A stretch of 64,000 nt of DNA from assembly GCF_037976325.1 (NCBI RefSeq), contig NZ_CP150265.1, positions 1,855,501-1,919,500 of the forward strand. Reading direction: 5' to 3'. Shown here one piece after another: positions 42,506 through 55,442 of this stretch. A program made the position numbers and the translations under genes. The stretch comes from Paenibacillus sp. FSL K6-3182. GTDB lineage: Bacteria; Bacillota; Bacilli; Paenibacillales; Paenibacillaceae. The notes beneath the pieces were generated by a model, which was given only the letters and a program-made list of their open reading frames with translations, had not been told where the DNA came from and ran no database searches. Position 1 is the first letter of the stretch; each line of letters begins with the position of its first letter.

Positions 42506-42985
42506 ATGTCGAACGATTGGCAATTTCCCATCGATCGTGAAATTAAGCTGTACAATCGGCTGGATGAGCTTCAGCGTCTGAATGAAGGGCTTGAACAAAT
42601 CGGTGCCGAGGCGGGCTGGTCTGAACGCGCAGTTCTCGACTTGTCTCTAGCATGCGAGGAGCTTGTCATCAACATTGTAAACTACGGCTTCCCATCTGGG
42701 GGAGAGCATCATATTGACGTCATTATTCAAGCTTCTCCAACCAGCGTTGAAGTGAAAATAGAAGACGGGGGCGTTCCCTTTAATCCGCTGCAGGAGGCTG
42801 ATCCTAGAGCATTATTAGAGCTCGAGCTGGAGGATCGTCCGATTGGCGGCTTGGGTATTTTTTTTGTGAAAAGGTTAATGGATGACATTCATTATGAATA
42901 TGCGGGCGGTTTGAATCGCTTCCGCATGCGCAAGCAATTCGTACTTAATAGCAATGGCGATAAGCGGGAGGAAGCAGACATATGA
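42506..42985 (+). CDS. RsbW/SpoIIAB-like anti-sigma or switch kinase
   Basis: ATP-binding protein of the partner-switching type, 159 residues. Seen: N box ACEELVINIVNYGFP at about residues 50-64, EDGGVPFNP and GGLGIFFVKRLMD (G boxes). It lacks a dimerisation His domain, so it phosphorylates a serine on a STAS antagonist, not a histidine. It overlaps the STAS gene by four bases (ATGA). No sigma factor gene is adjacent, so its target may be a sigma factor encoded elsewhere or another partner. Start ATG 42506 is behind TTGGGGGG. Confidence 0.83.
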   Translation: MSNDWQFPIDREIKLYNRLDELQRLNEGLEQIGAEAGWSERAVLDLSLACEELVINIVNYGFPSGGEHHIDVIIQASPTSVEVKIEDGGVPFNPLQEADPRALLELELEDRPIGGLGIFFVKRLMDDIHYEYAGGLNRFRMRKQFVLNSNGDKREEADI

Positions 42986-43326
42986 ACATTCAAGCAACGG
43001 AGTTAAATGGCATTACGATTATTCCACTAGAGGGAAGATTGGATGGGAATAATGCGACGATAGCGGAGCAAGCTTTCTTGAAGCTATTTGCAGAAGGCAA
43101 GCAGCAATTTATTTTTGATTTTACGAATCTGCAATACATAAGCAGTGCGGGACTGCGCGTTATACTGGTGGCGGCTAAGAAGCTTAGAGCCTCTAAAGGA
43201 CAGATGGTTTGCGCATGTCTCGGCGAGCAAGTCTATGATGTATTTGAAATGTCGGGTTTTACAACCATATTGGATATGGCGAAGACACGGGAAGAAGCGC
43301 TAGTCAAACTGGGAGCAGGGGCTTAA
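42982..43326 (+). CDS. STAS-domain anti-anti-sigma factor (RsbV/SpoIIAA-like)
   Basis: A 114-residue single STAS domain. Seen: LEGRLDGNNA near the N-terminus and the phospho-acceptor loop YISSAGLRV near residue 56, where the Ser is phosphorylated by the RsbW-like kinase and released by the PP2C phosphatase. In known systems the dephosphorylated form binds the kinase and frees its sigma factor or partner. It starts inside the end of the kinase gene (ATGA), so the two should be made in fixed ratio. Confidence 0.87.
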   Translation: MNIQATELNGITIIPLEGRLDGNNATIAEQAFLKLFAEGKQQFIFDFTNLQYISSAGLRVILVAAKKLRASKGQMVCACLGEQVYDVFEMSGFTTILDMAKTREEALVKLGAGA

Positions 43327-43363
43327 TGATGGTTCAGCTGAAGCTAGAGAGGCGGTAACGGTC

Positions 43364-44584
43364 TTGTCAGTACTCTATTTAATATTCGGAGCTGCGGGCC
43401 TTGGCGCTGCGGCATATTTATTCGTTTGCAATCGTCGTCTTACCGCAAAGCTGAGGCGTATGGAAATGCTGTTTGATTTAAGCACGCAGGTTCATTCCTC
43501 GCTGCATCAGCCGGAGCTAATAAATTCGGTAAATGCAGCAGCGAAGCAGCTTATATTCGCAGAAGAGGCAGCGGTTGGTCTGGTCGATGACTGGGATTCG
43601 CAAGATAATGAGCTTACAAAAACCATGGATCATAGCGTCGGCGATAAGGTAAGCGTGCCGATGATGGCGAGAGGCCGCAAGGTGGGTGTTCTGGAAGCAA
43701 CCGCTAAGATCGGCGGAGCTCGATTTAGTAGGGCAGATCATGAGACGCTTACTCAGTTCGCAAGGCCTCTGGCATTGGCACTGGATAATGCTAGACTCTA
43801 TGAAGCGCTTGAGGAGTCGGTGGGGGAGCTGCAAATGGCAACAGCACTCAAGGATCGCCTTGAGAATGAACTGCAAATTGCCGGCAGCATTCAGCTCAGC
43901 TTTCTTCCTACGACAATGCCTTCCTCAAATGAACCTTTTGACGTTTGTGCACTGTTGAAGTCAGCGAAAGAGGTAGGAGGCGACTTCTACAACTTTTTCA
44001 AAATAGACGAGGAGCATCTGTTTTTCACACTAGGTGACGTGTCGGATAAAGGAATACCAGCTGCGCTGTTCATGGCGATGACGCTTTCGTTAATTAAAGG
44101 GAAAATGAATGCGAAGCTGTCGCCAGGCGAGCTGCTGGAAATGGTCAACGATGAGCTTTGTACGGACAATGCGCAGCTATTCGCAACGATCATATGCGGC
44201 GTGCTGAACATTGCGACTGGCGAGGTTGTGCTTAGCGATGGCGGACATTGTACTCCTTACATTGTCAAAGCGGATGGTTCCGTTCTGCCGATTAAGCTCC
44301 CCAAAGGCATCCCGCTTGGTTCTTTCCCTGAATTCACTTATCGGAATCAGACCATCGAGCTTGAGCATGGCGATCGTTTTGTCCTCTACACCGATGGTAT
44401 TACCGAGGCTGAGAACGAACTGCAAGAGCAGTATTCCACTAGTCGTTTACAAAATTTCTTATCTCAAACGTCCGGTTATTCTAGCGCTGAAATCATCGAT
44501 GCGCTGCTGATGGACGTGTTCATGTTCGCGGACGGAGCTCCACAATCCGACGATATTGCGGTACTTTGCCTCATGCGCCGATAA
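43364..44584 (+). CDS. PP2C (SpoIIE/RsbU-type) phosphatase with GAF-like domain
   Basis: Serine phosphatase that should reactivate the STAS antagonist. Seen: one N-terminal membrane helix (about residues 3-22), a GAF-like sensing domain at about 30-150, a short coiled linker, and a SpoIIE phosphatase domain from about 170 with LLKSAKEVGGDFYNF, LGDVSDKGIPAALFMA, DGGHCTPYIV, FVLYTDGITEAEN and DDIAVLCLM, the metal-binding acidic residues of PP2C. It starts at TTG 43364; the GAGAGG 12 bases upstream is a weak support. It sits between the STAS gene and the eCIS ATPase gene with gaps of 37 and 31 bases. Confidence 0.85.
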   Translation: MSVLYLIFGAAGLGAAAYLFVCNRRLTAKLRRMEMLFDLSTQVHSSLHQPELINSVNAAAKQLIFAEEAAVGLVDDWDSQDNELTKTMDHSVGDKVSVPMMARGRKVGVLEATAKIGGARFSRADHETLTQFARPLALALDNARLYEALEESVGELQMATALKDRLENELQIAGSIQLSFLPTTMPSSNEPFDVCALLKSAKEVGGDFYNFFKIDEEHLFFTLGDVSDKGIPAALFMAMTLSLIKGKMNAKLSPGELLEMVNDELCTDNAQLFATIICGVLNIATGEVVLSDGGHCTPYIVKADGSVLPIKLPKGIPLGSFPEFTYRNQTIELEHGDRFVLYTDGITEAENELQEQYSTSRLQNFLSQTSGYSSAEIIDALLMDVFMFADGAPQSDDIAVLCLMRR

Positions 44585-46999: not shown

Positions 47000-47578
47000 A
47001 TGGGTGGATATACGGTTATTGCGGATTTGGAAGCCAGCATGCTGCGCTTGCTACGTGATCATCTTACGCCTGACCCAGTGCCGCGTCCCGAGTTGATCGG
47101 AATGGCTTCGCCCCGGGATGCAGGCGATCTAGCTCTTTCCTTGTTTTTGTTCAACGTTAAGGAAAATGGCGAATCTCGCCGGACGGGCATGGTGGATCGT
47201 GGAGGTGTGCTTCAGTACCCGCCGCAAGCGCTTGATTTTTATTTTTTAATGACAGCGCATTCGAGTGCGAATCGATTAACGCGTGCATTGGACGAGCATC
47301 GGATATTAGGTCGTGCTATGCAGGTCTTTTATGATAACGCCGTGCTCAGCGGTACATATCTTGAAGGCACGCTTGCTGAAGGAAACGGTGCGATAAGGAT
47401 GAGTCTAGTCAGCATGGAAGGCGAAGATTTACTGAAGCTTTGGCAGTTCGGTGATACGCCGTACAAGCTTTCTGTCGTCTATCGCGTAGGCCCAGTCATG
47501 CTCGATTCGAATCGTGTGAAGCCGGTTTCGCGAGTTGTCGAGCGTCATATTGTGCTTGAGGAAAAGGACGGTGGCTAA
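47000..47578 (+). CDS. DUF4255 protein (eCIS Afp16/PVC16-like terminator protein)
   Basis: 192 residues, matching the DUF4255 domain that forms the N-terminal part of Pvc16, the tube/sheath terminating cap. Seen: IADLEASMLRLLRDHL at the start, LSLFLFNVKENGESRR, the block LDFYFLMTAHSS near residue 80 and HRILGRAMQVFYD. The length equals that of the domain alone. It begins the structural operon. Start ATG 47000 is behind GGGAGTG. It ends two bases before the next gene. Confidence 0.83.
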   Translation: MGGYTVIADLEASMLRLLRDHLTPDPVPRPELIGMASPRDAGDLALSLFLFNVKENGESRRTGMVDRGGVLQYPPQALDFYFLMTAHSSANRLTRALDEHRILGRAMQVFYDNAVLSGTYLEGTLAEGNGAIRMSLVSMEGEDLLKLWQFGDTPYKLSVVYRVGPVMLDSNRVKPVSRVVERHIVLEEKDGG

Positions 47579-48473: not shown

Positions 48474-50186
48474 ATGGCTGAGTATTTATCGCCAGGCGTC
48501 TATGTGGAGGAATTTGAGAGCGGCGCCAAACCACTGGAAGGTGTTAGTACGAGCACAGCGGGCTTTATTGGGCTTGCTGCTCGCGGACCAGTCGAGGGTT
48601 TACCGCAGCTTATTACAAGTCCAGCTGATTTTGGACGTGTATATGGTTCCTATTTATCTGAAAATGCTTTTGGCTCATACCGTTTTCTTGCGCATGCGGT
48701 TAATCAGTTTTTCACAAACGGAGGCTCCCGCTGCTTCATTTCCCGGGTAGCGCCGTCAGATGCCAAAACAGCCTCTAACGAAGCTCAGAAGGATGCGGTT
48801 CTCTCCATTACCGCCAAAAATCCAGGCGCTTGGGGCAATCAAATTCGTGCTGTTGTTGTGCCTGCAAGCAAAGCAAAAACCCCGATCTTTGAAGCAAGCG
48901 AAGGCAATCGTTACCGCGTGAAAAACGCTGCTGGCTTTTATGCTGGAGATGTGGTCGTTTTTACAAATGGTACAGAGAAGCAATACAACCGCATCATTTC
49001 TGTTCATGATCAAGTGATTGAGCTTGCAGAAGCACTTAGCGGCGATGTAGTGGATACGGCTCTAGTTCCAACTAAAGTACTGAGTTCCTCGGAGTTTACG
49101 ATTAACGTGCTTTACGGAACGGAGTCGGAAACCTACGAGAAAGCATCACTAAATCCAGAGGCTCCAAACTATGTGGAGAAGCTGGTATCCCGCTCGAATA
49201 TCGTAAGCGTACAAGTACTAAAGGCATCGGAAGAGAGCATTGCTCCGCTAGAGCAAATTGCTGGTTCTGAGCTTGCCGTATTTGAAATTCTGCTTGCGGG
49301 CGGCAGTGATGGTTCTGCTACAAGCTTGTCGGCTGCTGATTTTATCGGCGAAGACTTTGGTCCAGGCAGAAGAACAGGCATCCAGTCGTTTATCGACAAC
49401 GATGTTGTCAGCATCATGGCGATTCCAGGTGTAACCGATCCTAACGTACAGCTGTCGCTGGTTGCTCATTGCGAAAGCTTGGGAAGCCGCTTTGCGATTC
49501 TTGATCTTCCTCGCGAAGTAACGAAGGTACAGGATGTGCTTGCTCATCGTGATTTGTTCGATTCAAGCTATTGCGCACTGTATAATCCATGGCTGCAAGT
49601 GTTTGACCCGCTTGACAAACGCAATATTTTCATCCCGCCATCTGGTACAATCGCTGGGGTATATGCTCGTTCTGACACGACACGCGGCGTACAAAAGGCG
49701 CCTGCCAACGAAACGCTTCGCGGTGTAGTAGGCCTAGACGTTCAATATAACAATGGCGAGCAGGATATTCTTAACCCAGCAGGCGTCAACTTGATTCGTG
49801 CTTTTACAGGTCAAGGCATTCGCGTATGGGGCGCTCGTACATGTTCATCCAATACACTTTGGAAATATATCAACGTACGCCGCTTATTCATTTTCATCGA
49901 AGGTTCGATCATGAATGGATCAAGCTGGGTTGTATTCGAACCCAATACCGAGCAGCTATGGGCCCGGGTTCAGCGCACGATTGACGCATTCTTAACTCGT
50001 GTATGGCGTGACGGAGCATTGTCCGGTACAAGCCCGTCTGAAGCATTTTATATTGAAATTGGACGTTCAACGATGACACAGGATGACATCGACAATGGAC
50101 GATTGATTTGTGTAATCGGCGTAGCGCCGGTGAAACCAGCTGAATTCGTCGTATTCCGCATCACGCAAAAAACAGGTTCGGAATAG
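48474..50186 (+). CDS. Contractile tail sheath protein (Afp2-like)
   Basis: Main sheath protein of the injection system, 570 residues. Seen: the conserved N-terminus LSPGVYVEEFESGAKPLEG, GVSTSTAGFIGLAARGPVE, SRCFISRVA and a C-terminal FIEGSIMNGSSWVVFEPN, QRTIDAFLTRVWRDGAL and DIDNGRLICVIGVAPVKPAEFVVFRI, all typical of phage/eCIS sheaths. Canonical Afp loci carry two or three sheath genes; only this one lies in the window. Start ATG 48474 is behind GAGAGGAGA. It is followed by the first tube protein 38 bases later. Confidence 0.93.
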   Translation: MAEYLSPGVYVEEFESGAKPLEGVSTSTAGFIGLAARGPVEGLPQLITSPADFGRVYGSYLSENAFGSYRFLAHAVNQFFTNGGSRCFISRVAPSDAKTASNEAQKDAVLSITAKNPGAWGNQIRAVVVPASKAKTPIFEASEGNRYRVKNAAGFYAGDVVVFTNGTEKQYNRIISVHDQVIELAEALSGDVVDTALVPTKVLSSSEFTINVLYGTESETYEKASLNPEAPNYVEKLVSRSNIVSVQVLKASEESIAPLEQIAGSELAVFEILLAGGSDGSATSLSAADFIGEDFGPGRRTGIQSFIDNDVVSIMAIPGVTDPNVQLSLVAHCESLGSRFAILDLPREVTKVQDVLAHRDLFDSSYCALYNPWLQVFDPLDKRNIFIPPSGTIAGVYARSDTTRGVQKAPANETLRGVVGLDVQYNNGEQDILNPAGVNLIRAFTGQGIRVWGARTCSSNTLWKYINVRRLFIFIEGSIMNGSSWVVFEPNTEQLWARVQRTIDAFLTRVWRDGALSGTSPSEAFYIEIGRSTMTQDDIDNGRLICVIGVAPVKPAEFVVFRITQKTGSE

Positions 50187-50224: not shown

Positions 50225-50659
50225 ATGCCAGGAGATCGTATTGATCCATATCGCAATTTTAGATTTCGTGTAGAAGTAGAAGGTCTTGAGCAAGCAGGAT
50301 TTAGCGAGGTTTCCGGTTTTGAGGCAACCTTTGATGTGGTCGAATACCGCGAGGGCAACGAGGTTATTACACCTCGCAAGCTTCCAGGCTTAATCAAGTA
50401 CGGCAACATTTCACTGAAATGGGGCACGACTGAATCGATGGAGCTGTATGATTGGCTTCAAGAATGCGCCGAAGGAACGATTGAGCGCAAAACGATTACG
50501 ATCATCGCGCTTGACGAAGAAGGCGAAGACGTGGCTACTTGGCAGGTTATCGAAGCTTGGCCTGTTAAATATACTGCGCCTACCTTCAATGGTACCGGCA
50601 ATGATATTGCGCTAGAGCTGATTGAATTCGCTCATGAGGGTTTAACGCGCACCGCATAG
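50225..50659 (+). CDS. Inner tube protein 1 (Afp1-like)
   Basis: 144-residue tube protein of the T4 gp19-like / Hcp-fold group. Seen: DPYRNFRFRVEVEGLEQAGFSEVSGFEA near the N-terminus (the FRVEV and FSEVSG motifs of the family), VEYREGNEV, KLPGLIKYGNISLKWG and ALELIEFAHEGLTR. Hexameric rings of this protein form the needle inside the sheath. It is placed just after the sheath gene, and a strong hairpin at 50689-50736 separates the pair from the rest, consistent with high need for both. Start ATG 50225 is behind GAAGGGGA. Confidence 0.92.
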   Translation: MPGDRIDPYRNFRFRVEVEGLEQAGFSEVSGFEATFDVVEYREGNEVITPRKLPGLIKYGNISLKWGTTESMELYDWLQECAEGTIERKTITIIALDEEGEDVATWQVIEAWPVKYTAPTFNGTGNDIALELIEFAHEGLTRTA

Positions 50660-50785: not shown

Positions 50786-51166
50786 ATGGCGTTTCAAACG
50801 GAATATGAATTTGAATTGCCTCGCGGCTACGTGGATGATCAAGGCAATCTCCACCGCCGGGGTGTTATGCGGCTTGCTACAGCAGCTGATGAAATTTTAC
50901 CGATGAAGGACCCGCGCGTACAATCCAACCCTAGTTATTTGACCGTTATTTTGATGGCTAGAGTGGTAACAAAGCTTGGGGACGTTAGGCATATTGATAC
51001 GAAGCTAATCGAGAAGCTGTTTACGGCAGATCTTGCTTATTTGCAAAATCTATATCGTCAGATTAATGACTTAGAGGCGCCTAAGGTGCTTACCGCTTGT
51101 CCGAAATGTGACCAGGAGTTTGAGGTGGCTGTCGATTTTTTGTCCTTAACGGAAGCTCTCTCTTAG
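50786..51166 (+). CDS. Tail assembly protein with Zn-ribbon-like CPKC
   Basis: 126-residue protein of the phage tail assembly type found between tube genes in eCIS loci. Seen: FELPRGYVDDQGNLHRRGVMRLATAADEILPM (typical N-terminal motif), LTVILMARVVTKLGDVRHIDTKLIEKLF and a C-terminal CPKCDQEFE with two Cys that may bind metal. It ends ALS with a TAG at 51164-51166. Its end overlaps in the -1 frame a second open stretch that lacks a start codon, with a slippery heptamer in the overlap. It may thus be made both alone and as a longer fusion, like the G/GT chaperones of phage tails. Confidence 0.78.
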   Translation: MAFQTEYEFELPRGYVDDQGNLHRRGVMRLATAADEILPMKDPRVQSNPSYLTVILMARVVTKLGDVRHIDTKLIEKLFTADLAYLQNLYRQINDLEAPKVLTACPKCDQEFEVAVDFLSLTEALS

Positions 51167-51363
51167 GTTATCCGGTTGACCGGCTGTACGAGGAGGTAGG
51201 CTTCGTCGCGTATTATTTTCATTGGTCGCATGACGAAATTATGAGCATGGAGCATGCAGAACGCAGGCGCTGGTGCGATGAAATTTCCAAAATTAATCGC
51301 AAGATGAACGATGAATCAGATAGCGGTAAGAAAAACATTTTCGACGTTTTTGGAAAGAGGTGA
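51124..51363 (+). CDS. Trans-frame extension of the tail assembly protein (DUF6760-like)
   Basis: Open frame coding YPVDRLYEEVGFVAYYF then HWSHDEIMSMEHAERRRWCDE and ISKINRKMNDESD, ending DVFGKR. The YP.DRLYEEV..VAY.FHW...EI...EH.ERR.W pattern is that of the small DUF6760-type protein found after this gene in other eCIS loci. No ATG, GTG or TTG occurs in frame from the upstream stop at 51121-51123 until ATG 51241, well inside the conserved part. It is thus best read as the 3' part of a -1 frameshift product with the gene at 50786. Initiation at a non-standard codon is the alternative. Confidence 0.65.
   Translation, partial: GGCRFFVLNGSSLLGYPVDRLYEEVGFVAYYFHWSHDEIMSMEHAERRRWCDEISKINRKMNDESDSGKKNIFDVFGKR
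51136..51142 (+). promoter_or_regulatory. Candidate -1 frameshift site (T TTT TTG)
   Basis: In the reading frame of the tail assembly gene the heptamer parses as T TTT TTG, with codons TTT (51137-51139) and TTG (51140-51142). This is the X XXY YYZ type known to promote -1 slippage. The -1 frame is open from 51124 to the TGA at 51361-51363, so slippage here yields a fusion. Confidence 0.65.
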
Positions 51364-51372
51364 CGCGGCGCT

Positions 51373-51834
51373 ATGGCAGTCATGAAGGGGCAAGAGAAAG
51401 GTCGCTTTCACGATGTAGCTACAACATTCAAGTTTTGGGTGGAGCTCGATGACATTTTTGTTGCAGGGTTCTCTGAGGTTTCGGGACTTGAGGCAGAAAC
51501 AGAAATTGAGGAATACCGTGAAGGCGGAGTGAATGGTTATGTTCATAAGCTGCCGATGGGCGTTCGGTTTCCAAATCTCGTGCTGCGCAAGGGAATGACC
51601 AAATCGCCTGCTCTTTGGAGCTGGTACGAAAGCACAATAGATGGAACGATTGACCGCAAAACAGGTGCGATTGTGCTGCAATCTGCTGACGGAACAGAAT
51701 TTGGGCGCTGGAGCTTCTTTGATGCTTATCCGGTGAGGTGGACCGGGCCGCATCTGAATGCGAGCACGAGTGACATTGCGGTTGAAACGATAGAAATTAT
51801 TCATAGCGGTTTATATGGCGATTTTCAGAAGTAG
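51373..51834 (+). CDS. Inner tube protein 2 (Afp5-like)
   Basis: 153-residue second tube protein. Seen: ATTFKFWVELDDIFVAGFSEVSGLEAETEIEEYREGG (the same FSEVSG motif as tube 1), KLPMGVRFPNLVLRKGM, WSWYESTIDGTIDRKTG and SDIAVETIEIIHSGL. In Afp-type systems the corresponding protein connects the needle to the baseplate. Start ATG 51373; a second ATG is at 51382. AGAGGTGA lies about ten bases upstream. It is followed 72 bases later by the 1178-residue gene. Confidence 0.9.
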   Translation: MAVMKGQEKGRFHDVATTFKFWVELDDIFVAGFSEVSGLEAETEIEEYREGGVNGYVHKLPMGVRFPNLVLRKGMTKSPALWSWYESTIDGTIDRKTGAIVLQSADGTEFGRWSFFDAYPVRWTGPHLNASTSDIAVETIEIIHSGLYGDFQK

Positions 51835-51905: not shown

Positions 51906-54900
51906 ATGAAACGAATTTTGGACCGTATGGGCAAAGCTGCGACAAAGCAATCAACGTCGGTTCAGCCGTTTGCCGGAGGCATCTTAAATAAATATAAGAC
52001 AGGGACAGGACGCAAAATATTTGAGCGGGTTGCTATGTCGCATGTGATCAAAAATGAACCGACCATTACTCAGCAAACGCTGCATGTGCAAGTCGTAGCA
52101 CCTAAAGCAGCAGCACCAAATAACGGCAACAATAAAAAAACGCCGCCTAGTCCAGAGCGCAAGCCTGAGCGCATCATGATGCGCGAGCGAGTAACGGTAG
52201 AGCGTGAAACGATCGTATTCAGAGATGTGACACATATTGTCAAAGAACTAAGAACAATAAGAGAAATGGCAATAGCACAGCCAGTTCAAGGGAAAGAAAC
52301 GAATGATGGAGCACTCCACAAAACAGGCATTACGAAGCAGTTAGATGAGATTGTTAACAGCAGTATAATTACGAACAGAGTCAAGCATGACCATTCCAAA
52401 CGAATAATACCGCATGTCTCGCAGCTGCCTACTCAACCATTGAAGGCAGAGCAGCAGGCGGATTACTATAAATGGCTGCAAGCCAAGCTTCAACCCGGTA
52501 TTGTCATTCAATCACTTCGCAAGCTGAATAACCTTAATAAGCCGCTTGCGAAGGATCGAGCTCAGCTTAAGTCTAACCTCAAGCAGGCTAACGATTTTGG
52601 CGCATCATTGAGCAAGGCGCCTTTGCTGCTTACGAATGCACGCAGAGCAGTCGTTTCACAAGAGCAGCGGGAAGCGGAGAAGAGAAGCGCCGCTGCGGGT
52701 AAGGTTATGAGCGAGGCAGGGAAGAGAGCCGAAGCGGTGAAGCTGGAGCAGCGGGAAGCGGAGAAGAGAAGCGCCGCTGCGGACAAGGTTATGAGCGAGG
52801 CAGGGAAAAGAGCCGAAGCGGTGAAGCTGGAGCAGCGGGAAGCGGAGAAGAGAAGCGCCGCTGCGGGCAAGGTTCTAAGCGAGGCAGGGAAGAGAGCCGA
52901 AGCGGTGAAGCTGGAGCAGCGGGAAGCGGAGAAGAGAAGCGCCGCTGCGGGTAAGGTTCTAAGCGAGGTAGGGAAGAGAGCCGAAGCGGTGAAGCTGGAG
53001 CAGCGGGAGGCGGGTAAGCAGAGTGCCGCTGTGGGTAAGGTTCTAAGCGAGGCAGGGAAGAGAGCCGAAGCGGTGAAGCTGGAGCAGCTAGAGACAGCGA
53101 CACACACGTTCCGTACGCTCTCGAGTAGACAGGACGATGATGTGTTACCGCAAGAAGATCGTGCAAAAGGAAAAAAACAGCTAGAGCTAAAGCATCGTAA
53201 TCATCAAAAACATAGCACCGAGCAAACGGAGATGTCGCAAGAAGCAGCACCAAATGGCAAGGAAGCGGATGTACAATCAAATGTCTCCGCGAATAAAACG
53301 AATCAACCGAATCGTTTGGCAATACCAAATGCAGAATCAGAAACAGAAGCTGCAGCTATCCATTCTAGTATCAAGGTAACCGCTAGCAAGATAACAGATG
53401 TTAATCGAAATAGGCTTCAGCTTCTAGTATTGCAGCGGAAGCCGCAGCTGTTGAACGAATTAATTGATCGAAGCAGCCAATCAGCGATTGCTGCCAAACG
53501 TCTCATTCATCGAGCGAATCGTTCACAGTCGGATCAGCCACGAGAGGTCGATAATGATTCAACTGTAAATCTGAATAATAGCAGCATGATTAATCCAGTC
53601 GTGCCTTCCCATAAAAAAGAGATTAAAGCTAATCCAGCTGATATTTCATCGAATGTAAGCAGCCGGAAGCGAAATGAAACAAAAACTTACAATGCTGCTA
53701 CTTCCATTCACGCGGCACAAGCAGGGATATCAGCTGATTTATCTCAAAGATTTATACCTTCAAAAACATTATCAAATGCTCTAGAAGAAGCAGCAAGAAT
53801 AAGGAATCGGAATATGGCTGCGAGGCCTACCCAGATGGTTTTGCGACGTTTTGAACAGAGACAGCCTGCGCAGAGCGTAGAGTCAGTGCTAAGGCAGGAT
53901 GCAAGCAAGGCATCCGAAGCTACCGCCCTGAAGAAGCCGTCAACTCAGCTTAACTATAAGCATAAAGCTGCAACGGATCATAATCCGAAAGGGATTATAC
54001 GTGCTCAAAGCCGCCGTGCTATTTTGCATAAACGAACAATCGTACCAGAATCGCAAACCTTAACGCATGATGTGAATTTCAATCAAGGCGCTTCTGCTAG
54101 TGTCAGTCGAACAGACGCGAGTGCGAGAGCCGAGAATTTGTCTAAAATGGGAGAATTGAAGCCAAGCGAAGAGGCTGGTTTAAATACGCGCTTGGCACCT
54201 GTTACCGTTCGCGGACAATTAATTGCGAGAGCTGCGAATAATAAGACGACGTTATTAAAAAACGGAGCATCACTGTCGCCTAAGCGGCGAATGACAGCGG
54301 CAAATCATGAAGCGAGCATCAGCGCTATACTTCAGAATGCAATACAAGGGAAAAGAAAAGGGACAACAATGCCTAGTCCTTTTTCTTCTGCTAATGCTGG
54401 AGCAAAAGTAGATTCAGCTTCTCCTTTAGTTGGAAGAACGGTTCATCGTTTTGCTGCTGAATGGCTCCCATCTGAAGCGATTAAAACCTCAGCATATGCG
54501 GTTGAAAACAATAATATTAGGCAAGCATCCACTTCATTAGTGCGAAGGCTAGCGGAGCAGCAGACTTCTCCAAACACAAAGCCAAGCGCTAGCGCTGATG
54601 CGAAACAAAAACCGGTCGAATCAAGACTAGTTCAGCGGCAAGTCCGTAAAAATAACAGCACCTCGGTAAATGAATTAGAAAAAACATATGGCGCTGAATC
54701 ATTAAATGATGGGGCGAATAAAGCAACACAAACGTTGGCTAACCGCTTTGAAATGTCAGCCGAAGCAACGGAATCAGCAAAAGCTTCCGCATCCATGCGT
54801 GCGTATCCAACACTAAGCGTGCACAAGCAGACAGAATCAGTCGAAATGAAGCAGTCAGCTCCTGCTCTCCCTATTAGCGAGAGAAATAACCGCAGCGAAC

Positions 54901-55442
54901 AAACCAATCCTGTGCATCGTCAAACGTTAATGTCATCTTTCTTGAATAGCGGATCCAGAGCAGGAGTGACTCCATTCCGAACGATTCAAAGACATTCTGG
55001 CTTCGCCAATCTTGCTGCAAAAGCATCCAAAGAAAACAAGCCGTTGCTTAGCGGACTAACATCGGTTGTAAAAGCCGGTATTGAGCCTAGTTCCGTTCAA
55101 TCTAGCGGCACAATTGGCGATCAAGTAAGGCTTAGTTATACAGCAGCTGCCCGTCATCGAAATACAGCTGGCCAAGCTGCACCTAGCGGAGCAGAGACGA
55201 ACGCTGCTTCATTTGGGGAACGAGGCGAGATGCCCACACTTTCGCATCATAAACCAAGTGGGCCCGCTGCACAGGAGCCGCCGCGTCAGGTGAAGGTGGA
55301 AGCGCCTCGCGAGCTGGACCCTGTGCAGCTGCAGAAGATGATTATGAAAATGCCGCAGCTGCATCCAGAAGCTATTGCGGATCAAGTATATAAGGCGTTG
55401 GAGCGAAAGATGAAGCTGGAGCAGCGAAGAAGAGGCTTCTAG
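51906..55442 (+). CDS. Large low-complexity protein of eCIS locus with 28-residue repeats
   Basis: 1178 residues with no recognised catalytic domain. Seen: a basic N-terminus MKRILDRMGKAATKQS, helical stretch around residues 100-215, then five exact-to-near-exact 28-residue repeats (about 253-392; unit EQREAEKRSAAAGKVLSEAG plus KRAEAVKL), a pattern of four heptads that should form a coiled coil. The next 750 residues are rich in Ala, Ser, Asn, Gln and Arg and likely disordered. The last 45 residues are ordered and helical: ELDPVQLQKMIMKMPQLHPE then IADQVYKALERKMKLEQRRRG. That C-terminal pattern suggests docking to a tail or baseplate part. It may be a tape measure or a cargo carried in the needle, but neither is shown. 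Start ATG 51906 is behind AGGAGG. Confidence 0.75.
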   Translation: MKRILDRMGKAATKQSTSVQPFAGGILNKYKTGTGRKIFERVAMSHVIKNEPTITQQTLHVQVVAPKAAAPNNGNNKKTPPSPERKPERIMMRERVTVERETIVFRDVTHIVKELRTIREMAIAQPVQGKETNDGALHKTGITKQLDEIVNSSIITNRVKHDHSKRIIPHVSQLPTQPLKAEQQADYYKWLQAKLQPGIVIQSLRKLNNLNKPLAKDRAQLKSNLKQANDFGASLSKAPLLLTNARRAVVSQEQREAEKRSAAAGKVMSEAGKRAEAVKLEQREAEKRSAAADKVMSEAGKRAEAVKLEQREAEKRSAAAGKVLSEAGKRAEAVKLEQREAEKRSAAAGKVLSEVGKRAEAVKLEQREAGKQSAAVGKVLSEAGKRAEAVKLEQLETATHTFRTLSSRQDDDVLPQEDRAKGKKQLELKHRNHQKHSTEQTEMSQEAAPNGKEADVQSNVSANKTNQPNRLAIPNAESETEAAAIHSSIKVTASKITDVNRNRLQLLVLQRKPQLLNELIDRSSQSAIAAKRLIHRANRSQSDQPREVDNDSTVNLNNSSMINPVVPSHKKEIKANPADISSNVSSRKRNETKTYNAATSIHAAQAGISADLSQRFIPSKTLSNALEEAARIRNRNMAARPTQMVLRRFEQRQPAQSVESVLRQDASKASEATALKKPSTQLNYKHKAATDHNPKGIIRAQSRRAILHKRTIVPESQTLTHDVNFNQGASASVSRTDASARAENLSKMGELKPSEEAGLNTRLAPVTVRGQLIARAANNKTTLLKNGASLSPKRRMTAANHEASISAILQNAIQGKRKGTTMPSPFSSANAGAKVDSASPLVGRTVHRFAAEWLPSEAIKTSAYAVENNNIRQASTSLVRRLAEQQTSPNTKPSASADAKQKPVESRLVQRQVRKNNSTSVNELEKTYGAESLNDGANKATQTLANRFEMSAEATESAKASASMRAYPTLSVHKQTESVEMKQSAPALPISERNNRSEQTNPVHRQTLMSSFLNSGSRAGVTPFRTIQRHSGFANLAAKASKENKPLLSGLTSVVKAGIEPSSVQSSGTIGDQVRLSYTAAARHRNTAGQAAPSGAETNAASFGERGEMPTLSHHKPSGPAAQEPPRQVKVEAPRELDPVQLQKMIMKMPQLHPEAIADQVYKALERKMKLEQRRRGF
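52662..53081 (+). repeat. Five tandem 84-base coding repeats
   Basis: Unit of 84 bases (28 codons, four heptads), five copies from GAGCAGCGGGAAGCGG onward, very similar to each other. They lie in frame inside the 1178-residue gene and encode coiled-coil units. Units 1 and 2 carry KVM, units 3-5 KVL, suggesting stepwise duplication. The repeat number may vary between strains. Confidence 0.93.

Follow-up and report, generated by a model that had tools for sequence, protein, structure and literature searches.

The window, a stretch of 64,000 nucleotides from Paenibacillus sp. FSL K6-3182, carries an eCIS gene cluster. This cluster encodes a Pvc16_N-domain protein, a contractile sheath protein, two gp19 tube proteins, a CIS_tube/LysM protein, a hub and a spike, and it also has gp25, two Baseplate_J proteins and an AAA ATPase. 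After the first tube gene and before the second lies a small gene for a putative tail assembly chaperone (TAC), and a domain of the DUF6760 family, read in the -1 frame, overlaps the end of this gene. The features of the region are as follows:

47000..47578, + strand: Pvc16_N-domain protein, an eCIS marker (116.4 bits)
48474..50186, + strand: contractile sheath protein (PF04984 and PF17482)
50225..50659, + strand: tube protein 1 (Phage_T4_gp19, 153.9 bits), the upstream neighbour
50786..51166, + strand: zero-frame TAC, predicted 'G' product, 126 aa, with a C-terminal CPKC pair (ORF checked base by base)
51122..51127, + strand: GAGGTG, a Shine-Dalgarno-like candidate stimulator 8 nt 5' of the heptamer, recognised by anti-SD pairing
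51136..51142, + strand: slippery heptamer T_TTT_TTG, zero frame GAT TTT TTG (checked base by base)
51136..51363, + strand: -1 frame extension, predicted 'T' part, DUF6760 (PF20546, 77.4 bits against a cut-off of 27 bits), without a start codon of its own, ending in TGA at 51361-51363
51164..51166, + strand: zero-frame stop TAG, 7 codons past the TTG of the heptamer
51373..51834, + strand: tube protein 2 (Phage_T4_gp19, 135.4 bits), directly downstream

An ORF of 1178 residues with near-identical EQREAEKRSAAAGKVMSEAGKRAEAVKL-type repeats follows the second tube gene and precedes the LysM gene (window positions 51906-55442). It has no Pfam match at E 0.001 and could be a tape measure or a cargo protein. 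Upstream of the cluster, genes with HATPase, STAS and SpoIIE domains stand in a row (42506-44584), possibly as a regulator of the eCIS genes.

Reading frames around the slip site

A preliminary description of this DNA had read the overlap as a probable programmed -1 frameshift, and the frame anatomy it relied on holds when checked base by base. The DUF6760 stretch does overlap the TAC gene in the -1 frame, which is open from 51124, just past a TGA at 51121-51123, to the terminal TGA. The claim that this frame lacks ATG, GTG and TTG for 39 codons is exact; the first of these is an ATG at 51241, behind the conserved FHW motif and inside the domain. The heptamer lies where it had been placed, in phase, and is the sole in-phase X_XXY_YYZ heptamer in the TAC gene; as a bare string, TTTTTT[AG] has 29 occurrences on the window's + strand. 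From the slip to the GYP motif the window reads TTT TTT GTC CTT AAC GGA AGC TCT CTC TTA GGT TAT, and no table-11 start codon, standard or rare, is found along it.

A slip back by one base at the heptamer would give a TAC–DUF6760 fusion of 192 residues rather than the roughly 210 first estimated. Its predicted junction is VDFL-VLNGSS if both tRNAs slip and VDFF-VLNGSS if the P-site tRNA slips alone.

Conservation in the genus and beyond

DUF6760 was found in 21 of the 51 genus genomes searched. All 21 loci place it in the TAC gene's -1 frame, with a heptamer in the corresponding place, either T_TTT_TTG (18) or T_TTT_TTA (3). L003, another genome of this species, has the same arrangement as the window. 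A one-base sequencing error, which the preliminary description had named as a possible undoing of its reading, is excluded because this second genome and all 21 genus loci share the arrangement. The loss of the heptamer in relatives, named there as well, does not occur within the genus; farther out the heptamer is replaced by other slippery-type sites.

Codon usage around the site is conserved among these same 21 loci, which were picked without regard to the motif. GAT, TTT and TCC around the slip, like GAG in the Shine-Dalgarno-like element, show no synonymous variation at all, a conservation partly forced by double coding in the overlap. For the gene body, the most frequent synonymous codon averages a share of 0.62, and fixation is seen in about 2% of 86 columns.

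More distant relatives were drawn from the family (66 of 295 genomes), the order (72 of 246) and the phylum (9 of 348), with part of the matched genomes included, and from public genome contigs (80 of 546 loci), viral contigs (11) and plasmids (14 of 34 records). With the genus, the 199 loci reduce to 168 that are distinct over 105 nt around the TAC stop; L002, L187 and L188, along with 31 loci identical to another over those 105 nt, were left out before counting. The named bacterial sources include Cohnella, Brevibacillus, Desulfosporosinus, rumen Clostridia, a deltaproteobacterial symbiont, Nitrospirota, Aminicenantes, Rhizobium, Paraburkholderia, Nostoc and Streptomyces, and the archaeal ones include Methanoperedens and Haloferax. 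In 62 distinct loci from the public genome and viral contigs, relatives of the window's tube proteins flank the gene upstream in 54 and downstream in 50; 45 loci have one on both sides, 3 have none, and 55 hold a sheath relative.

DUF6760 lies in the -1 frame of the TAC gene in 166 of the 168 distinct loci. The exceptions are L165, from a Methanosarcina MAG (+1 frame), and L201, from Kovacikia (frame 0), which are perhaps indels or assembly errors. These two look like what would be expected if the whole arrangement came from a frameshift mutation or a sequencing error in a dead gene, but an accident of that kind is hard to square with the same arrangement in the second genome of the species and in 166 loci across phyla, and its chances of being the explanation are vanishingly small.

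An in-phase slippery-type site near the TAC stop was found in 165 of the 166 loci with the -1 arrangement, and a canonical X_XXY_YYZ heptamer in 118. When motifs are ranked, T_TTT_TTR accounts for 97 loci, G_GGG_GAR for 37, A_AAT_TTT for 14, T_TTT followed by a nonmatching codon for 10, G_GGG_GGN for 4, T_TTT_TTY for 2 and G_GGA_AAC for 1, leaving 1 with none. G_GGG_GAR is not a canonical heptamer because only the P-site tRNA can re-pair fully. If the first motif from the 5' side is taken instead, there are 105 T-class, 41 G-class and 19 A-class loci; the two schemes differ because 22 loci carry more than one type of motif. The locus with a nonslippery site, L183, reads AAT TTC TTG. It belongs to a group of distant DUF6760 relatives on IMG/VR contigs (L179-L186), seven of the eight having NTT TTR near the TAC stop. 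DUF6760 relatives are carried by the IMG/VR contigs L176-L186, and a tblastn search for DUF6760 in phage records gave no match.

The site is concentrated at the end of the gene. In 166 TAC genes, the listed slippery motifs occupy 162 of 1494 in-phase positions near gene ends and 21 of 16,589 in gene bodies; by locus, a listed motif is present at the gene end in 155 of 166 and in a control window 150 nt upstream in 3 of 166. The -1 frame is open from the slip onward, with no stop through the next 19 codons in 165 of 165 loci, and it often closes shortly before, with a stop within 10 codons ahead of the slip in 115 of 165. Across the linker, none of 2663 codons of the -1 frame is a stop; the +1 frame holds 201 stops. 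When the TAC tree leaves out the overlap (the last 12 residues), the motif class still changes at least 10 times, and the residues at the site alter (FL/FF, GE/GG, NF/KF) while a slippery-type site persists. None of these counts is a probability because the loci are related, and phylogeny enters only the tree of motif changes. A statistic on the codon preceding the slip (Ser as TCT in 46 of 46, against 18 of 220 in the body) was set aside as conditional on the T motif and partly circular.

Where the frame closes just ahead of the slip, the position of the shift can be narrowed. L018 and L175 have a stop immediately before the slip; in L018 it is a TGA directly 5' of the slip, and therefore the shift must happen at or past that point.

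The T6 tract itself suggests another route to the second frame, slippage of RNA polymerase during transcription. A homopolymer, T6 or G5, is indeed present in most loci (97 with T_TTT_TTR and 37 with G_GGG_GAR, of 166). However, T6 is short for polymerase slippage, 14 loci with A_AAT_TTT have no T6, the one with G_GGA_AAC has no long homopolymer, and the slip motif keeps codon phase. Polymerase slippage is thus a highly improbable source of the second frame.

DUF6760 might also be made as a separate small protein, by translational coupling at a start that overlaps the TAC stop (ATGA or GTGA) or at a nonstandard codon. Existing annotations do treat DUF6760 as a separate CDS with an overlap of 4 nt or 7 nt, and in Nostoc its start would by coordinates be an ATA. 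An ATG, GTG or TTG lies between the slip and the domain in 23 of 165 loci, at the stop overlap in 16 of them. Examples are ATGA in L103, L104, L115, L142, L190 and L199 and GTGA in the Streptomyces-group loci L196, L197, L200 and L202. Of the ten weak T_TTT loci, four (L103, L104, L126 and L142) have an ATG or a TTG overlapping the stop, which looks as though the slip had given way to a coupled start. Yet an NTG in the -1 frame arises automatically from a TGA stop, the TAC stop is TAA or TAG in 138 of 165 loci, and ATG, GTG and TTG are all absent between slip and domain in 142 of 165. All 23 start-bearing loci keep a slip-type motif, 4 of them as T_TTT only, and a coupled start leaves unexplained why the -1 frame is free of stops from the slip, ahead of any such start. 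Initiation at a nonstandard codon, the remaining outcome that the preliminary description had set against its reading, is unlikely because stops are kept out of the -1 frame precisely from the slip onward and the window has no table-11 start there. Overall a coupled start is improbable as the explanation of the family. In Streptomyces, Brevibacillus and some others, frameshifting and coupled initiation are not separable because a start codon is present. In L199, a Haloferax larsenii plasmid, the in-phase G_GGA_AAC stands together with an ATGA start-stop overlap.

Candidate stimulators

The candidate stimulator lies upstream of the slip. An anti-SD duplex of -4.4 kcal/mol or lower is found in up to 74 of the 105 loci in the T class, 28 of the 41 in the G class and 4 of the 19 in the A class, and the position of the Shine-Dalgarno-like element peaks at 5-10 nt upstream of the slip. 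In EV pairs near the slip, Glu is encoded by GAG in 90 of 112 cases and Val by GTG in 73 of 112, compared with 493 of 1071 and 406 of 1113 in gene bodies. The same G-rich or GAGGTG stretch would, if the start were coupled, act as a ribosome-binding site for DUF6760, a reading as improbable as the coupled start it would serve.

No downstream stimulatory RNA structure was detected in the T class (mean z -0.15 over 50 nt and -0.88 over 80 nt), and none was seen in the window itself, with z between 0.16 and -0.65. The G class is more stable than its shuffles (mean z -2.22 over 50 nt, with z below -2 in a share of 0.54 of the 41 loci), which may be caused by the GGCTACC of the GYP codons rather than by a conserved stem. 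In the account of P2 given in passages of PMC3091744, the frameshift there has no downstream structure either. As for the motif, U_UUU_UUA and U_UUU_UUU are described in a part of PMC5009743 as far less shifty than A_AAA_AAG in E. coli constructs.

Kinship with phage tail chaperones and the frameshift model

The closest parallel is found in phage P2, where a -1 frameshift at TTTTTTG yields E (91 aa) and E+E' (142 aa), according to passages of PMC3091744. The frameshift site is marked in the P2 record AF063097, and a script found an in-phase T_TTT_TTN site in 10 of 12 P2-like records. For L286 and L291 the script did not find the correct zero frame, yet both records annotate the joined form; L286 was excluded from the set for hhalign. 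In the P2-like set, 11 annotated phage records replaced 80 viral-contig copies that were 100% identical to the query.

In a profile comparison with hhalign, DUF6760 matches P2 E' with a score of 37.4 (Prob 86.3; E 5.4e-7, taken as a single comparison), and none of 50 column shuffles exceeded 17.05. The alignment starts with the slip's FF and ends with the FHW motif; it is the FHW region that carries the homology because the FF is partly given by the common slip site. Judged from the sequence profiles, the DUF6760 extension and E', which P2 makes by frameshifting, are homologues. This homology is claimed from hhalign and not from membership in PF06528 (Phage_P2_GpE), for which the window stays below the cut-off of 23 with 12.8 bits (E 0.089); in set A4, 22 of 44 members match PF06528 at E<=1, the best at E 0.0038.

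P2 gpE/gpE+E' and the eCIS gene share the heptamer, the direction of the shift, nearness to the zero-frame stop, the homologous C-terminal extension and a contractile tail. They differ in neighbourhood: P2 E lies between the tube gene FII and the tape measure gene T, and here the gene lies between two eCIS tube genes. P2 is also a phage and an eCIS is not; the direct comparison of the two proteins was of their extensions. In the case of lambda, the short gpG and the rare -1 extended gpGT (passages of PMC5009743) correspond to the same predicted two-product plan. The parallel with the phage G/GT chaperones drawn in the preliminary description is made specific by the profile match to P2 E', by the shared heptamer and by structural matches of the zero-frame product.

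These structural matches come from a model of the TAC (pLDDT 82.7), whose best solved matches in a second-look alignment are YqbN (3klu) and the HK97 chaperone (2ob9), at 10-11% identity. With Foldseek by itself, all matches stayed above E 0.3, YqbN coming first at E 0.32. The modelled fold is TAC-like, and on this basis the zero-frame product is assigned as a tail assembly chaperone. Among phages, the chaperone cluster of an HK97-like phage frameshifts at 6-7% (in passages of PMC3711429), and Mu gp41 may be a tail assembly chaperone (in a part of PMC11915804). In BFVD, the TAC model also has matches among long T4-like proteins of hub assembly and the baseplate. By the title of their 2022 paper, Vladimirov et al. 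reportedly find that T4-like TACs are made without frameshifting and suggest another mechanism.

Other small proteins of contractile injection clusters were compared as well. The plug Alg6/Cis6/Afp6 is one such protein, and within the spike Alg6 reportedly consists of one strand and a helix at the C-terminus (both from passages of PMC8894135 and PMC8894136). The DUF6760 model (pLDDT 72.2), unlike Alg6, has three main helices, and Foldseek gave no useful match for it. Sequence searches of the PDB gave no relevant match; in particular, the DUF6760 profile found no relevant chain at E<=1, in a searched set for which the presence of plug chains is unconfirmed.

Taken as a whole, phase, conservation and the homology to P2 E' support the programmed -1 frameshift first proposed, and the eCIS TAC gene very probably makes its second product by such ribosomal frameshifting. 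The gene shows marks of the G/GT type, a TAC-like zero-frame product, a -1 ORF that lacks its own start in the window and a conserved in-phase slippery site. Most ribosomes would produce the 126-residue TAC, comparable to lambda gpG and P2 gpE. A minority would slip back one base on T_TTT_TTG, probably aided by pairing of the upstream GAGGTG with 16S rRNA, and make the 192-residue fusion, comparable to gpGT and gpE+E'. By analogy with lambda, the TAC part may coat the length-determining protein and the DUF6760 part may recruit tube subunits. Given such split roles, a set ratio of the two products would be needed for assembly. A natural in-frame TAC–DUF6760 fusion was not found among just 3 candidates sharing words.

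A broader reading can be offered more tentatively. It is quite possible that TAC frameshifting is ancestral and near-universal in DUF6760-type systems of bacteria and archaea, with the motif repeatedly swapped (T_TTT_TTR, A_AAT_TTT, G_GGA_AAC, G_GGG_GAR). In some lineages, those of high GC above all, the site would be in transition between signalling a frameshift and binding ribosomes for a coupled start. DUF6760 would then not be a gene of its own but the seldom-made tail of a chaperone with two forms, one that contributes to setting particle assembly or length.

The preliminary description had also supposed that such frameshifting was undescribed in eCIS. In agreement with this, the open-access literature searched gave no report of such frameshifting in contractile injection systems or for DUF6760. 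No such description appears in the passages of PMC13222765, PMC8894135, PMC8894136, PMC13277306, PMC11126660, PMC8718954, PMC9022992, PMC11915804 and PMC10269795.

If frameshifting does take place, the G/GT rule of phage tail assembly extends to injection machines owned by cells, and DUF6760, a family of unknown function, gains a mechanism. Expression constructs for these systems must then retain the slip site because recoding or splitting the genes would alter the ratio of the chaperone forms. The dependence of eCIS assembly or length on that ratio becomes a testable question. Public records list DUF6760 as a separate protein, and its length differs with the start chosen, being 40, 42, 58 and 84 residues in four close relatives. 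In the records P0081, P0091, P0004 and P0001, DUF6760 is made to start at differing internal or upstream codons.
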